Assembly (NCBI GenBank): GCA_027451445.1
Contig: DAIDJG010000071.1
Coordinates: 1 to 61,638, forward strand
Direction: 5' to 3'
Length of the DNA stretch: 61,638 bases
DNA from: Singulisphaera sp.
Lineage (GTDB): Bacteria > Planctomycetota > Planctomycetia > Isosphaerales > Isosphaeraceae
In this document: positions 47,347 through 54,959 of the stretch, piece by piece
How the letters are laid out: the number at the start of each line of letters is the position of its first letter
Position numbering within the stretch: position 1 is the first letter of the stretch
Notes under the pieces: model-generated
What the model saw: only the letters and a program-made list of their open reading frames with translations
Told to the model about the DNA's origin: nothing
Database searches by the model: none
Position numbers and translations under genes: made by a program

Positions 47347-48195
47347 TTACGCGTGCTTCGACACCAGGGGCTCGAGCACGTCGTACGCCCCCTTCGCGGC
47401 GCCGTCGGGATCGTCCACATTCGGATAGAGCTCGACGGTGAGCCACCCGTCATAGCCTGTCGCACGGATCGCGCGCACGACCTCGGAAAAATCGATCGCA
47501 CCCGTCCCGGGCACCAGGTGATGATGAACCCGAGTGGCCGCGATGTCTTCGAAGTGATAGTGCCGAATATGAGGCGCGAGCTTCGCGATCGCTCTCGGCA
47601 AATCCTCGCTGACGCAGAATGCATGGCCCACGTCAAAATTCAAGCCGATCGCAGGCGCATTGACCCGTTCGGCCACTTCGAGATACTGATCCGTCGTTTC
47701 CAGCAACAACCCCGGCTCAGGCTCGATCAGCAGCAATACCCCTTCATTGTGAGCATGCTCGGCCAGGGGTTTGAGAACCTCCACGAAGAGGTCGATCGCC
47801 AACTGCCGCGACAGCCCAGGCGCAAGCGGACCGCCCGGCTCGGTCGTGATGTGAGGCGCTCCCAGTTCCGCACAGAGGCTCAGCGCACGCTTGGTGTGGT
47901 CGATTCGAACCCTTCGGTAGTACGGGTCGGGCTCGATGAACGACGGATACCAGTAGGGTTGCCGGTAGTCGTTGATCGCGTTCATCATAAACGCGTTCAC
48001 ATTGGAGAAAGCGAGCCCGCTTTTGGCCATCGCGGCCTTGATGGCCTGTTTGGTCTCCGGCAGTAATCCCGCGGGCCAGGCGTGGGGAACGTCGGCCATG
48101 AGCTCGAGGCCCTGGTAACCGATCGCCGCGATTCGGGCCGCTGCCTCGTGGAAGGGAAAACGAAGGTAAGCGTTGGTGCTGAAGGCGAGTTTCAT
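47347..48195 (-). CDS. Sugar phosphate isomerase/epimerase (AP-endonuclease-2/xylose-isomerase fold)
   Basis: 282 residues with the TIM-barrel signature of the AP_endonuc_2 family: FHEAAARIAAIGYQGLEL, THITTEPGGPLAPGL-type strand, VLLLIEPEPGLLLETTDQYL, IGLNFDVGHAFC, HIRHYHFEDI, and a closing GYDGWLTVELYPN. Metal ligands (Glu in IEPEP, Asp/His in DVGHA, Glu in VELYP) are visible. The substrate is unknown; planctomycetes contain many. It is divergent from the TPR-alpha-CTD gene (305-bp gap). Confidence 0.88.
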   Translation of the reverse strand: MKLAFSTNAYLRFPFHEAAARIAAIGYQGLELMADVPHAWPAGLLPETKQAIKAAMAKSGLAFSNVNAFMMNAINDYRQPYWYPSFIEPDPYYRRVRIDHTKRALSLCAELGAPHITTEPGGPLAPGLSRQLAIDLFVEVLKPLAEHAHNEGVLLLIEPEPGLLLETTDQYLEVAERVNAPAIGLNFDVGHAFCVSEDLPRAIAKLAPHIRHYHFEDIAATRVHHHLVPGTGAIDFSEVVRAIRATGYDGWLTVELYPNVDDPDGAAKGAYDVLEPLVSKHA

Positions 48196-48328
48196 GAGGC
48201 TCTCGAAGGGCGTGACAGCACGACAGGGCGCAGAGGAACGATTATGTTCGCCTTCGACAGTAGGTTCAACCCTCCGCTACTCAGCGTCTTTCTGAGAGGG
48301 GCGCTGTTTGAGACGGATTCAGCCGCGC

Positions 48329-48356
48329 TTGCAAACTTCGCGCCTTTCGTTAAAAT
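48329..48356 (+). promoter_or_regulatory. Candidate promoter of the TPR-alpha-CTD gene
   Basis: TTGCAA (48329-48334), 16-nt spacer, TAAAAT (48351-48356), 144 nt before the ATG at 48501. It lies in a 305-bp divergent region (48196-48500) with no other clear feature. The sequence -35/-10 pair is the best in the region. Confidence 0.4.
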
Positions 48357-48500
48357 CGGTTCTTTGCCCCGTGCCATTCGATGGCGATTGGGAACGCATT
48401 GTGCTGTGCACCATGGGCCTGCGGTGAAATCGTCGCCGGCCGCCCTGACGCACAAGGCGCTCGAGTTGCTGCTTGCCCCGCATTGAGGAGTGACTGACGG

Positions 48501-49838
48501 ATGGCCGAGATTGCGATGACCACCGATGTCCGCGCGTTGCTGGATCGGACTCCCTTCGACGCGTCGGCAGTCGCCGACTTGCGCGAGGTGCTGGGACGCG
48601 ACCCGTCGCGTTACCGCACGCTTCGAGACGCCGTGGCGGCGATGCGCGACCGCGAGCGAGCCAACATGAAGCCCGAGACCTACCTGCGTCTCGGCGTGGG
48701 TGATGTGCTCCTGGGCCGTTACGCCGCGGCGCTGGACGAACTGGCCAAAGCGGGTGACAACGGTCTTGCTCACTTCCACCGCGGCCTGGCGCTTCAGAAC
48801 CTCCAGCGCTGGAACGATGCCGCCGAGGCCTTCGCGGCCGCCGGCAAGGCAGGCCATGATTCGAAGGCGTCCGAATTGCACCGCGCGGGGGTGTTGAGGC
48901 GAGCAGGAAAGATCGAAGACGCGCAGGCCATCCTGAAGAATCTGGAGAAACTCGGCAGCAGCTCGGCCGAGTTCCATTACCAACGCGGCAGCCTCCTCGC
49001 GGTTGACGGCGAACTCGCCGCCGCGGCCGTCGAATTCGAGAAGGCCCTGAACATCGACCGCGACCACACCGGTGCGTTGTTCGAGCTCGCGTACATCAAC
49101 GATCTCCACGGCAACGACGAAACGGCCGTCGAATACTACAAGCGCTGTACTCAGCGACCCCCGGTTCCCCTCGCCGCGCTGATCAACCTCGGCGTACTCT
49201 ACGAAGATGAGATGCGGTTCCGGGAAGCCGAGCAGTGCTACCGCCAGGTGCTCACGTTCGACCCGAACCATCCCCGCGCGCGGCTCTTCTTCCGCGACTG
49301 CCGGGCCAGCAAGGACATGTACTACGATGAAGAAGAAATTCATCGTTACAGCGTCTTGCGCCAGCTCCTCGAGATCCCGGTCACCGACTTCGAGCTCTCC
49401 GTCCGCAGCCGCAACTGCCTGCGCAAGATGAATATCCGGACGCTCGGCGACCTGACGCGCACGACCGAGGCTGCGCTGCTGGCGAGCAAGAACTTCGGCG
49501 AAACCTCGCTCTCCGAAATCAAGGAGATGATGACTTCCAAGGGCGTGCGCCTCGGCATGGCCCTCGAAGGAGGCGAACGGGCCGCTGCCGAGCTCCGGCA
49601 CGAACCCGTCGAGGAACTGAGCCAGGAAGAAAAAGCGCTCCTCGCCAAGCCGATTGCCGACCTGAACCTGTCTGTCCGGGCGCGCAAGTGCATGAACAAG
49701 CTTGGAATTCAAACGGTCGGCGAGCTGATCGTGCACACGGGCGATGAGCTGATGGAATGCAAGAACTTCGGCGTGACCTCGCTCAACGAGGTGCGCGAGA
49801 AGCTCGTGGAGCTTGGGCTCAAGCTGAAAAACGAGTGA
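48501..49838 (+). CDS. TPR protein fused to two RNA polymerase alpha-CTD-like domains
   Basis: 445 residues; GAGGAG lies nine bases before the ATG. Residues ~60-270 are TPR-like helical pairs (LRLGVGDVLLGRYAAALDEL, LAYINDLHGNDETAVEYYKR, GVLYEDEMRFREAEQCYRQV). Two RNAP alpha-CTD-like domains follow, at 292-355 and 383-443. In the first, E298, R302, N305, C306, G333 and S336 align with E. coli alpha E261, R265, N268, C269, G296 and S299; Lys298 is replaced by Thr335. In the second, R393, C397, G424 and S427 keep the key set, with Lys396 for N268. These residues in alpha contact the UP element and activators. There is no alpha-NTD, so it cannot be an RNAP subunit. A DNA-binding scaffold or transcription modulator is plausible. 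Confidence 0.86.
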   Translation: MAEIAMTTDVRALLDRTPFDASAVADLREVLGRDPSRYRTLRDAVAAMRDRERANMKPETYLRLGVGDVLLGRYAAALDELAKAGDNGLAHFHRGLALQNLQRWNDAAEAFAAAGKAGHDSKASELHRAGVLRRAGKIEDAQAILKNLEKLGSSSAEFHYQRGSLLAVDGELAAAAVEFEKALNIDRDHTGALFELAYINDLHGNDETAVEYYKRCTQRPPVPLAALINLGVLYEDEMRFREAEQCYRQVLTFDPNHPRARLFFRDCRASKDMYYDEEEIHRYSVLRQLLEIPVTDFELSVRSRNCLRKMNIRTLGDLTRTTEAALLASKNFGETSLSEIKEMMTSKGVRLGMALEGGERAAAELRHEPVEELSQEEKALLAKPIADLNLSVRARKCMNKLGIQTVGELIVHTGDELMECKNFGVTSLNEVREKLVELGLKLKNE

Positions 49839-50111
49839 TTCGGCATCAGGAAAGCGTTGCACGGCGCGGGGTGGGGGAGATTTTTTCCGCCCTGCGTTTT
49901 TGCGATTGCAGGAGCAGTTCGGATAGTGGCTCCCTCAATACGCTGTGGCGACAATGCAGCCGTGCTTGCGCTGAAACTGGCAGTCGCGCAATGCGACCGG
50001 CGTTGGTATTACTTCAACCAGATCGATGGCGTCTTCGGAGTATTCTGCGCCATCTCCGCGGAAACCGCCGCAGTCGCCTGACCCCACAGTCCGAGGAACC
50101 AGGACTGCCCT

Positions 50112-51227
50112 TTGTCGCGCCCCGTCCGATTTGAGCTCCTGGCCCGCGACACCGGCTCCGGCGCACGTGTGGGCCGGTTGGCCACGCCACACGGCACACT
50201 GGAAACGCCCGCGTTCATGCCGGTCGGCACACAGGCAACGGTCAAGGGGCTGACCCCCGACCTGTTGCGCGCGACCGGCTCGCGCATGATCCTCGCTAAC
50301 ACGTATCATCTCGCGCTGAGGCCGGGCGAAGAGGTTGTGGCTGCGCTGGGAGGGCTCCACACGTTCATGGGGTGGGACGGCCCGATCCTCACCGACTCGG
50401 GCGGGTTCCAGGTCTTCAGCCTCGCGGCACGCTCGAAGATTCGCGACAGCGGCGTCACGTTTCGGTCGCATCTCGACGGCAGCCTCCTCGAGCTGACCCC
50501 GGAGCGCGCCGTCGCGATCCAGTCGGCGCTCGGGGCCGACGTCGCGATGTGTCTCGACCACTGTCCCGCGCTCCCGGCAACGCGAGACGAGGTCGCCGAC
50601 GCCGTGCGCCGCACGATCGCCTGGGCCGAGCGCTGCAAGGCCGCGCACGAGCGACCGGACCAATCCCTGTTCGGCATCGTCCAGGGAGGCGCGCACGCCG
50701 ACCTCCGTGCTGAGTGCACCGAGGCGCTCCTCGGTCTCGACTTCGACGGGTACGCCGTGGGTGGCGTCAGCGTAGGGGAGAGCCGCGAACAGGTCCGCCT
50801 CGCGCTTGAAGTGACGACACACCTGCTGCCCGAGGACCGCCCGCGCTACCTGATGGGCGTCGGGCGGCCGCAGGACATCATCGACGCCGTCGCCACCGGG
50901 ATCGACCTCTTCGACTGCGTCTTGCCCACGCGCAATGGCCGGAACGCGACCTGCCTGACCGACCAGGGGCCCGTCAAGCTCCGCAACGCCGCCCATCGGT
51001 ATGATTCCAGGCCCGTGGAGGAGGATTGCAACTGCCTCGCCTGCCGCAAATTCAGCCGCGCCTACCTGCGGCACCTGTTCCTGGCGAAGGAAATGCTGGG
51101 CCCCATTCTCGCCTCGATCCACAATCTGACGTACCTTCAGCGGCTCACTTTGCGAATCCGGGAAGCGATAATCGCCGGGCGATTCGTCCCCTTTCGGACG
51201 GAAGTGCTTGAAGCGTTGGGACCCTAG
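50112..51227 (+). CDS. tgt: tRNA-guanine transglycosylase
   Basis: 371 residues, normal. Tgt exchanges guanine-34 for preQ1 in tRNAs with GUN anticodons. The TTG at 50112 is supported by AGGA seven bases upstream and by the N-terminus [20 protein letters not shown]. Motifs: [13 protein letters not shown] (catalytic Asp), [48 protein letters not shown] (second Asp) and zinc ligands in [18 protein letters not shown]. It is followed by yajC and secDF in the classic order. The upstream 273 bp hold no gene I can support. Confidence 0.96.
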
Positions 51228-51351
51228 TGGTTACATTGCAGTTTCCAGGAAAGCGAACGCGCCCGATCAAGGTGCCGTTCTGGGTTCTCCGGGTCGTTGT
51301 GTCGGGTCGCAGCCCGCGCTTTCCTCACCGTATCGGGAGATGAACGCAGAC

Positions 51352-51735
51352 ATGCAAGCATTGTTCGCCGCGATTCCACTCTTGTTCGCTCAAGCTGCCG
51401 CGAAAGGGGGTGGTGGAGGCGAGCCTTCATCCCTTTACACGTGGGCGCCGTTGCTGCCGCTCCCGATCATCTTCTACTTCTTGATGATCCGTCCCCAGCA
51501 ACAAATGGAACGCAAACGTAAGGACATGCTTGATGCGCTCAAGAAGAACGATCGTGTCCTGACGACGGCCGGGATTTACGGCACGGTTCATTCGATTGAC
51601 AACGAGCAGGACAAGGTTGTGTTGCGAGTGGATGACGACAAGGGAGTGCGACTCGCCTTCAGTCGCGCGAGCATCGTGCGCGTTGTGGAAGTCTCTTCGG
51701 AAAAGGACAAGAGCAAGACGGCGGAGACCGTCTAA
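51352..51735 (+). CDS. yajC: Preprotein translocase subunit YajC
   Basis: 127 residues. YajC is a small single-pass membrane protein associated with SecDF at the Sec translocon. The N-terminal segment is hydrophobic, then a Gly-rich linker, then the diagnostic LLPLPIIFYFLMIRPQQQMERKRKDMLDALKKND and VLTTAGIYGTVHSI (read in parts). ATG 51352 gives usual length; its GGGAG site is 12 nt upstream, and ATG 51340 is too close to that site. The frame continues upstream into tgt. A hairpin with T-run follows, possibly reducing readthrough into secDF. Confidence 0.92.
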   Translation: MQALFAAIPLLFAQAAAKGGGGGEPSSLYTWAPLLPLPIIFYFLMIRPQQQMERKRKDMLDALKKNDRVLTTAGIYGTVHSIDNEQDKVVLRVDDDKGVRLAFSRASIVRVVEVSSEKDKSKTAETV

Positions 51736-51787: not shown

Positions 51788-51828
51788 CCCCGAAGCGGGA
51801 TGGCGCTTCGGGGTTCGGTTGATTTTTG
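51788..51828 (+). terminator. Intrinsic terminator or attenuator between yajC and secDF
   Basis: CCCCGAAGCG (51788-51797) pairs with CGCTTCGGGG (51804-51813), a perfect 10-bp stem with a 6-nt loop. A T-rich run follows (TTCGGTTGATTTTTG, 51814-51828). It lies 53 nt after yajC and about 100 nt before secDF, so secDF may have its own promoter or depend on readthrough. Confidence 0.6.
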
Positions 51829-51926
51829 ACGCGAGCCTTGGGTTGAGGCTCGGTTCTCGAGTTCTTTCGGGTAGGCAGCCCGTTCGCGGTTCGCCGGCGC
51901 AGCGCGGCGGGAGGCAAGGGACGATC

Positions 51927-54900
51927 ATGAAGAATCTCCGCGGAAAGTTCGTGCTGATCGGAATCGCCACAGTGCTCGGCATTCTGGCGCTCTATCCGCC
52001 GGCCGACAAACTGAAGCTGGGCATCGACCTTTCGGGCGGAACGATCCTTGTCTACGAGGTGGTGAAAGACAACCTCGGCAAGAAGATCGACATGGACGAC
52101 TTGATCGTCGCCCTCAAGCACCGGGCCGACCCCGAAGGTGTGAAGGAAATGCCGATCCGCAAGGTCGGCGGCAACCGGATTGAGATCATCCTCCCCCACT
52201 ACACCAATGAGGAGGTGGAGGACCTCAAGAAGATGCTGACCGACGTCGGTCTGCTCAAGTTCCGCATCCTTGCCACGCACAAACACACCGATCAGGCGAC
52301 GATCGACCGAGCCCTAGGGCCGAGCGGGCTGAGCAAGCCGCCCTCGCGCTACCTTTGGGCCAAGCTCGGTGAGGTCTCGACGGGGACGAATGCGAAAGTC
52401 ACTGCGACCACACTCACCGACCTTAGTCAGTCCTGGAAGAAGGATCTCTACGCGAGCACAACCGTCGACTTGACGGGTAAGGACGCATCGGGCAAAGAGC
52501 AGACGATCAGCGTTCCGGTCAAAACGAATTCCGCCAACACGCTGACATTCGAGAAGCCCCAGGAGCTGCGGAACGTCACGTCCTATCGCATTGAATACAA
52601 CCCAAGCAACATTCACGGGGGCAACCCGACCGCGCCACGGCCCGGCGACCCGATCATCCGAGAGGAAAAAGTCGCGCCGGGTCGCACCGAGTTCTGGATC
52701 CTCTGCGTCCACGACAAGCAGGATGTTACGGGCAATTACCTCGCGCGGGCCTTCGCGACCCAGGACGAACGCCTTCAACCCGCGGTCGGGTTCGTATTCA
52801 ACCGCCGAGGAGCAAGGCTCTTTGGCAAGCTGACTCACGAACACTTGCCCGAAGAGCAAGGGGCGTTCAAGTACCAGCTTGCGATTTTGCTCGACGACCT
52901 GGTGATGTCCGCACCGTCGATCAACTCTGAAATTCGCGAGAGCGGGATCATCGAGGGTGGCGGGCAGGGCTTCAAGCCCAAGGAAGTGGATTACCTCATC
53001 CGCATTCTCCAGGCCGGCAGCCTCCCCGCAAGCTTGAATCCCATCCCGGTCCAGGAAGAAAAAGTGGGTCCGACGCTGGGTGACGACACGATCCAAAAGG
53101 GGCTGCGGGCCATCTGGGTCTCGATGCTCGTCGTGCCCTTGTTCATGATCGCTTATTACCGTTTCGCGGGGGTCGTCGCGGTCATTGCGCTCGTTCTCAA
53201 CATGATCGAGCTGGTCGGCTCGATGGCGTTCATCAAAGCCACGTTCTCGTTACCTGGGCTCGCCGGGCTTTCGCTCACGATCGGTATGGCGGTCGACGCC
53301 AACGTGCTCGTCTTCGAGCGTATGCGTGAAGAAAAAGAACGAGGCGCCAGCATCGCCCAGCAAATCCGCAACGGCTTCAACCGTGCGTGGGTCACGATTT
53401 TCGACTCGCACGTCACGCTGTTGCTCTCGGCGCTGGTGCTTTGGTTCGTCGGTACGGAGGAAGTGAAGGGTTTCGCCCTGACGATGATCATCGGCATGCT
53501 CTTCAACCTGTTCACCGCGGTTTACGTTTCACGCGCGATCTTCGAGCTCTGGTACCAACAGGGCTGGTTGAAGAAGCTCACGATGATGAAGTTGTTCGAC
53601 AAGACGAACATCGACTTTATCGGGCCTCGGCACGTCTGCATGGCGGTGTCGATGGTCTTGATCGTGATCGGCCTGATTGCTTGCGGCGTGCGCCGGCACA
53701 ATATCTTCAACATCGACTTCACCGGCGGCACGCTGGTGACGATTCGCCTCGACGAGAATGCGCCCGAGGTCAAGAATTTGAGCGAATCGCAACGGGCCAG
53801 CTTTGTTCGTACCAAGGCGACCACGCTCCCCGACGTCACCGTGGAGAGCCTGAAGGCTGGCGAGGATAAGACGCTCGCGCGGTTCAACATCCGCACGACC
53901 GACCAGGATACCAACCACGTGAAGGCGTCGATCGTCGACGCGTTTGGCAAGAACCTCAAGCGCGTGACGCTGACGTACGACAAAGGAAAGCCGATCGAGG
54001 CGTCGGCCACCGATACCAAGGATGAAGTCAAGAAGGACGCGGTTCCCACGCGATTTGCGGGGGGTACCGAATATCACCTTACGCTGAACACCACCGAGCT
54101 GAACAGCACTCAGAAGCCGTTCCAGGTGGTCGCCGCGGAGTTCACGCGTGTCCTCGAGAGCGACAAGATTGTCAACCCGACGACGCGTTTCGAGATGAGT
54201 CAGGCGGCACCTTCCGCGGATGCCGCACAGGGTGACAACGAGAAGGAGTTGATCCTTCGAACGGACCTCGATCCCAAGACGGCCGACACCGCACTCAAAG
54301 GGCTCGTCACCGCGCTGGAGAATAATCGCGACCTGCTCTTCGAGAGGATCGAGAACTTCGGCGGGACGGTGGCAGGCGAGACGCGAAACCTTGCGTTGAT
54401 CGCCACGGTGGCAAGCTGGTTGATCATCATCGGCTACCTCTGGTTCCGGTTCAAGTCGCTCACCTACGGCCTTGCGGCGGTGCTTGCGGTCATCCACGAC
54501 GTGCTCATCACGCTCGGAGCGCTCGCGGTCAGTTACTGGCTGGCGAAGATCCCGGGCTTCAATGAGATTCTGCAAATCGACCAGTTCAAGATCGACCTGC
54601 CGATCGTCGCGGCCTTCTTGACCCTGATTGGTTTCTCGGTGAACGACACCATCGTAATCTTCGACCGAATTCGTGAGATCAAAGGGAAGACGCCGTTGAC
54701 CGAGCAAATCGTCAACGAGGCCGTCAACCAGACGTTAAGCCGGACGATCTTGACCTCGTTGACCGCCTGGCTCGTCGTCGTGATCCTCTACTTCTTCGGC
54801 GGCGAAGGGTTGCACGGTTTCGCATTCGCGCTGGTGGTGGGGTTCCTGAGCGGAACCTACAGCACCGTCTACATTGCCACGCCGATCCTGGTGGACTGGA

Positions 54901-54959
54901 TCGGCACCAGCAAGACGCCCCCCACGAAGAGCGACAAGGAGTTCGCGGCGGCGCGGTAA
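51927..54959 (+). CDS. secDF: Fused protein translocase subunit SecDF
   Basis: 1010 residues: SecD (to about residue 570) and SecF (after about 575) in one chain, as in Bacillus and several planctomycetes. SecDF uses the proton-motive force to complete translocation through SecYEG. ATG 51927 has GGGAGGCAAGG upstream and gives the signal-like first helix (FVLIGIATVLGILAL). SecD motifs: LKLGIDLSGGT (D-D-F-type), LLSLTIG-like GLAGLSLTIGMAVDANVLVFERMREEK. SecF motifs: NIDFTGGTLVT, LTLIGFSVNDTIVIFDRIREIKG and GLHGFAFALVVGFLSGTYST. Six helices per half with large periplasmic loops. No frameshift at the junction; the protein is naturally fused. Confidence 0.95.
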   Translation: MKNLRGKFVLIGIATVLGILALYPPADKLKLGIDLSGGTILVYEVVKDNLGKKIDMDDLIVALKHRADPEGVKEMPIRKVGGNRIEIILPHYTNEEVEDLKKMLTDVGLLKFRILATHKHTDQATIDRALGPSGLSKPPSRYLWAKLGEVSTGTNAKVTATTLTDLSQSWKKDLYASTTVDLTGKDASGKEQTISVPVKTNSANTLTFEKPQELRNVTSYRIEYNPSNIHGGNPTAPRPGDPIIREEKVAPGRTEFWILCVHDKQDVTGNYLARAFATQDERLQPAVGFVFNRRGARLFGKLTHEHLPEEQGAFKYQLAILLDDLVMSAPSINSEIRESGIIEGGGQGFKPKEVDYLIRILQAGSLPASLNPIPVQEEKVGPTLGDDTIQKGLRAIWVSMLVVPLFMIAYYRFAGVVAVIALVLNMIELVGSMAFIKATFSLPGLAGLSLTIGMAVDANVLVFERMREEKERGASIAQQIRNGFNRAWVTIFDSHVTLLLSALVLWFVGTEEVKGFALTMIIGMLFNLFTAVYVSRAIFELWYQQGWLKKLTMMKLFDKTNIDFIGPRHVCMAVSMVLIVIGLIACGVRRHNIFNIDFTGGTLVTIRLDENAPEVKNLSESQRASFVRTKATTLPDVTVESLKAGEDKTLARFNIRTTDQDTNHVKASIVDAFGKNLKRVTLTYDKGKPIEASATDTKDEVKKDAVPTRFAGGTEYHLTLNTTELNSTQKPFQVVAAEFTRVLESDKIVNPTTRFEMSQAAPSADAAQGDNEKELILRTDLDPKTADTALKGLVTALENNRDLLFERIENFGGTVAGETRNLALIATVASWLIIIGYLWFRFKSLTYGLAAVLAVIHDVLITLGALAVSYWLAKIPGFNEILQIDQFKIDLPIVAAFLTLIGFSVNDTIVIFDRIREIKGKTPLTEQIVNEAVNQTLSRTILTSLTAWLVVVILYFFGGEGLHGFAFALVVGFLSGTYSTVYIATPILVDWIGTSKTPPTKSDKEFAAAR

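Follow-up and report, generated by a model that had tools for sequence, protein, structure and literature searches.

A phylum-wide protein of Planctomycetota combining TPR repeats with tandem RNA polymerase alpha-CTD domains is a probable transcription factor

The window analyzed in this study, a stretch of 61,638 nucleotides from a Singulisphaera sp. genome, encodes on its forward strand at positions 48501..49838 a protein of 445 aa that is probably, judging from its sequence, an undescribed transcription factor of the Planctomycetota. A scaffold of TPR repeats is followed in this protein by a conserved linker and by two tandem domains, CTD1 and CTD2, which have the predicted fold of the RNA polymerase alpha-CTD and retain R265-type residues, and the gene is conserved as a single copy across the phylum. 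UP elements and activators as a rule dock on bacterial RNA polymerase (RNAP) at its alpha-CTD, and a role in transcription appears to be the most economical interpretation of the protein.

The open reading frame starts with ATG, stays open for 445 aa and has a ribosome-binding site, read in the sequence as GAGGAG (48485..48490, +), 10 nt 5' of the start codon. Against six relatives its dN/dS is 0.07-0.18, and third codon positions vary most. A chance or spurious frame is ruled out by this purifying selection and by the orthologs across the phylum. An antisense open frame of 556 aa (48192-49862, -) spans the whole gene. It was rejected as a coding frame, since the selection pattern fits the plus-strand frame; the purifying selection on 48501-49838 therefore makes the overlapping frame very unlikely to be a gene, and it is probably a by-product of sense-strand codon use. 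In the host genome of 10.9 Mb, PF03118 matches three times, namely twice in the gene described here and once in an ordinary rpoA that lies separately on contig C68. A mis-called rpoA is ruled out by this separate gene together with the lack of an alpha-NTD in the 445-aa protein.

The TPR region comprises residues 21-271 (48561..49313, +) with about seven helical hairpins and a capping helix. TPR-like repeats N-terminal to the CTDs had been proposed in the first-pass annotation, and both the Pfam families TPR_1, TPR_2 and TPR_8 (E 1e-15 to 4e-13; TPR_1 with 57 bits vs a cut-off of 27.8) and the AlphaFold2 model agree with tandem TPR hairpins. In the model, the helical hairpins occupy residues 21-253; the capping helix at 258-271 and a linker helix at 277-290 lead on to two compact domains. 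The linker at residues 265-278 (RDCRASKDMYYDEE; 49293..49334, +) is conserved over the 41 loci from many families for which residues were counted, with D266 found in 41, M273 in 36 and D276 in 37 of them. The whole-protein model has a pLDDT of 84.5 and a pTM of 0.56, a low value that leaves the arrangement of the domains relative to each other uncertain, and the stretch 357-373 between the two C-terminal domains is of low confidence. The proposed absence of an alpha-NTD was borne out as well: no Pfam family of the alpha-NTD matched the 445-aa protein, and the NCBIfam rpoA models covered only the CTDs with scores below their cut-offs (e.g. 128.6 vs 227.8). Therefore, the protein cannot assemble into RNAP in the way alpha does. 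Its Pfam matches include neither a RuvA family nor an OmpR-type DNA-binding or BTA domain of the SARP/AfsR type.

CTD1 (residues 293-355; 49377..49565, +) and CTD2 (residues 384-445; 49650..49835, +) are both recognized by the Pfam family RNA_pol_A_CTD, which matches the protein in two stretches with 142.6 bits vs a cut-off of 23.8 (E 3e-42); in the genome search PF03118 scored 75.0 bits for CTD1 and 78.7 bits for CTD2. With phmmer against the PDB, residues 290-359 align with the E. coli alpha-CTD (1lb2, 1coo, 3k4g) at E about 2e-14 and residues 376-444 with mycobacterial and Bacillus alpha-CTDs. Only TPR-type structures were among the Foldseek matches listed for the whole protein and, because the TPR part fills this list, the C-terminal part was modelled by itself (pLDDT 76, pTM 0.40) and used for a second search. 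Among the matches then listed were RNAP alpha subunits or complexes containing these. The predicted CTD1 superposes on 9zum_B, a Caulobacter alpha-CTD on AT-rich DNA, with a VIA-align Z of 13.2 (rmsd 1.5, 73 residues), and the predicted CTD2 on 8hvr_K with a Z of 13.1 (rmsd 1.3, 73 residues). As both models match solved alpha-CTDs, no other fold was seen for the C-terminus. Thus, the earlier assignment of the two C-terminal segments is confirmed at the level of sequence family and predicted fold. The residues said to be kept in both were also found in the alignment, R302 and R393 being the equivalents of E. coli R265, C306 and C397 of C269, G333 and G424 of G296, and S336 and S427 of S299.

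In the E. coli alpha-CTD the R265-type residues contact DNA, and the face with D259 and E261 meets sigma region 4. CTD1, the most conserved part of the protein, keeps the contact set almost completely over the 41 loci (R265, N294, G296 and E302 in 41, N268 in 40, S299 in 39 and C269 in 38), and the sigma-facing residues D259 and E261 are each present in 39. It departs from the E. coli domain in that K297 is replaced by E or D and E273 always by Met; the rpoA of the host also has E at the K297 position. In CTD2, R265 and E302 are present at all 41 loci and G296 and S299 each at 38, while N268 is replaced by K or R at 39 (by K in the protein of the window) and the sigma-facing determinant is kept loosely. 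Mean identity across nine genomes is 74.9% for CTD1, 56.9% for CTD2 and 62.1% for the CTD of rpoA, and the mean charge makes CTD1 slightly more basic than the rpoA CTD (+1.1 vs -0.1). In one genus (genomes G066, G125 and G145; loci L140, L141 and L142) the profile match ends after CTD1, and a short basic tail rich in Lys and Arg replaces CTD2. Therefore TPR repeats, linker and CTD1 appear as the constant core of the protein, and the two CTDs are, to judge by their residues, not equivalent. The first-pass annotation had spoken of two UP-element-binding heads; this description is too strong: CTD1 has the full contact set, but in CTD2 N268 is altered, the sigma face is loose and one genus lacks the domain altogether. 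When the short domains are placed in a tree, the CTD1 sequences form a single clade (41/41, support 0.955) and the CTD2 sequences a clade of 41 plus one from B. subtilis (support 0.889). Such separate clades fit a tandem that arose before the sampled members of the phylum diverged, although trees of 60 residues are weak evidence.

The distribution was determined with a profile (A1) of the C-terminal half of the protein, for which rows with E < 1e-40 were counted as presence. By this measure the gene is present in 192 of 195 Planctomycetota genomes, covering 60 families and 143 genera. The remaining three (G023, G083 and G149), drafts of 190-460 contigs, gave weaker matches only. At the strict threshold each of the 59 genomes that are at least 95% complete has exactly one copy. 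Of the 59 nearest relatives, 55 carry the gene, and three of the other four are less than 90% complete. PF03118 matches at least three times in nearly all of the 195 genomes. A scan of contigs with exact peptide patterns returned 26 loci, all in Planctomycetota, and was insensitive, missing most known members; absence from other phyla therefore cannot be claimed, and the protein is, as far as these searches reach, phylum-wide, while "phylum-specific" would go beyond the scan. Plasmids, phages and viral contigs contained no full-length relative and, where annotated, only alpha-CTDs of rpoA, which rules out a mobile or phage origin. Because the gene is single-copy and core across the whole phylum, it is more likely to have a housekeeping or global role than to be a local, specialized regulator. 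The earlier proposal of an undescribed regulator is thus supported in part, in that transcription is the most economical reading of its role, and has to be amended as to its range.

We propose, with a probability of roughly 45%, that the protein is a phylum-wide transcription factor made from RNAP parts that acts at promoters. With its R265-type minor-groove contacts, CTD1 would sit on A/T-rich DNA that lies upstream of the -35 element and, like an alpha-CTD tethered to RNAP, would show its sigma-facing determinant. RNAP itself, or else an activator, would be held by the TPR solenoid as a partner, and CTD2 would provide a second, altered contact with DNA or protein. The protein would then be a mobile extra alpha-CTD that works in trans and recruits or stabilizes RNAP at promoters. 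We infer that it binds DNA, is located at promoters, touches RNAP or sigma, and activates rather than represses. In favor of this proposal, CTD1 retains both its DNA and its sigma face, is more conserved than the CTD of rpoA and is slightly more basic; the gene is single-copy and nearly universal in the phylum; and alpha-CTDs are also found fused to sigma region 4 in Planctomycetota. Against it stand the exchange of K297 in CTD1, though the host rpoA shares the E, the loss of N268 in CTD2, and the neighboring ruv, tgt, yajC and secDF, which are not transcription genes. It is rather unlikely that the planctomycetal RNAP requires the protein as an accessory subunit or as a general factor that offers it additional alpha-CTDs in trans at the majority of promoters; if it did, the protein would be an addition to the basal transcription machinery throughout the phylum.

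The retained alpha-CTD faces on a protein without alpha-NTD would also suit a decoy or antagonist, whose CTDs would compete with the alpha-CTD of RNAP for the activators docking on it or for UP-element DNA and would so dampen transcription, with the TPR part controlling availability. Competition with RNAP alpha is one possibility, which we do not favor: a nearly universal single-copy gene and a CTD1 that evolves more slowly than the real alpha-CTD suit a positive core role equally well or better, and we regard a decoy as unlikely.

At 33 of the 41 loci, genes on the same strand 3' of the gene belong to a recurring cluster, and judging by gene order the TPR-alpha-CTD gene heads remnants of ruvC-ruvA-ruvB-queH-spoIID-tgt-yajC-secDF there. 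The names of the neighbors were assigned by reading protein sequences and not by family search. Downstream, ruvA and a spoIID-like gene were counted at 15 loci each, tgt at 13, secDF at 11, yajC at 10 and ruvB at 4. The fullest order, at locus L134, is the TPR-alpha-CTD gene, ruvC, ruvA, ruvB, a queH-like gene, a spoIID-like gene, tgt, yajC and secDF. Our window retains tgt (queuine tRNA-ribosyltransferase) as the next cluster gene (50112..51227, +), yajC (51208..51735, +) and secDF (51819..54959, +), all identified from their open frames and the conserved clustering. In many bacteria the YebC gene precedes ruvC. The TPR-alpha-CTD gene did not replace YebC, which 57 of 59 genomes still encode at another location. 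In the class of the window RuvA has diverged strongly, with RuvA_N matches at E 1e-4 to 1e-7 (e.g. G000:C463:49264-49437(-) in the host genome), and RuvA_C had no match in the host genome.

Since the functions within the cluster are mixed, the neighborhood is weak evidence for function. It raises the question of a role in recombination or chromosome maintenance, in which CTDs of the helix-hairpin-helix type, to which the alpha-CTD fold belongs, would bind DNA, branched or ordinary, and the TPR part would reach RuvABC or other repair proteins; ruvA lies directly 3' of the gene at 15 of the 41 loci, ruvB follows at four, and ruvC stands between at L134. However, the conserved features are specific to the alpha-CTD and include the sigma-facing D259 and E261, and in the class of the window, where RuvA is divergent and encoded elsewhere, the TPR-alpha-CTD gene shows no change, which speaks against a close link to RuvA. 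We regard such a role as unlikely, slightly more so than that of a decoy. Least probable is a function in elongation or coupling, where the CTDs would take the place of the alpha-CTD when NusA-like factors or transcription-translation complexes are contacted and the TPR part would bridge to another machine: the Foldseek matches listed include alpha from NusA elongation and coupling complexes (8y5l, 6flq), so that the alpha-CTD does occur in these, and tgt, yajC and secDF are close to the gene, but the Foldseek rows reflect only a common fold, and conservation is strongest on the DNA and sigma faces, for which elongation contacts have no obvious need.

Further alpha-CTDs outside RpoA were seen in the phylum. 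Small proteins of 101-135 aa, consisting of about one alpha-CTD with R265, N268 and C269, occur in two families of the class of the window (L175:2102-2404, L176:2036-2434 and L177:2047-2451, all on the - strand); in the family of the window itself, the TPR-alpha-CTD gene and frames of rpoA size were the only matches to the query. Two or three alpha-CTDs are combined with Sigma70_r4 and HARE-HTH in further proteins (L179:2583-4640(+), 686 aa, and L182:1674-4001(+), at least 776 aa), which are, by domain content, a second off-polymerase use of alpha-CTDs in Planctomycetota. A PurS-PurL (FGAM synthase) fusion (L181:1038-3926(-)) has an RNA_pol_A_CTD match (E 1e-10) between its two parts, and a protein of 1418 aa with NERD, protein kinase and alpha-CTD (L180:2485-6738(-)) resembles BREX PglW.

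For the TPR and tandem alpha-CTD architecture, its phylum-wide single copy and the conservation of its CTD1, no description was found in the open-access literature searched; public annotation pipelines presumably label the protein by its domains. A core, single-copy, off-polymerase pair of alpha-CTDs, the first of which is more conserved than that of RNAP itself, suggests an undescribed layer of transcription control in the phylum. The cell biology of Planctomycetota is known to be unusual and many of their essential genes have no known function, and for Planctopirus limnophila a genome-wide transposon data set exists (PMC10632474), which makes the question directly testable.

Compared with RpoA, the protein shares the sequence family and predicted fold of the alpha-CTD and the R265-type residues in both CTDs; it differs by the lack of an alpha-NTD, the TPR scaffold and the tandem arrangement of two CTDs, and rpoA is a separate gene in the genome. 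The SARP activator AfsR is similar in being a TPR protein tied to the promoter site of sigma region 4 and alpha-CTD (PMC10936776). AfsR binds the alpha-CTD via an OmpR-type DNA-binding and BTA domain plus NOD (PMC10936776), whereas the TPR-alpha-CTD protein contains alpha-CTDs itself and has none of these domains. That alpha-CTDs occur outside RpoA is already known from PglW and PRK07758. These two and the proteins with alpha-CTD, Sigma70_r4 and HARE-HTH likewise have an alpha-CTD without alpha-NTD; in contrast to the TPR-alpha-CTD protein, they carry other partner domains and no TPR, and are scattered in the genomes examined.
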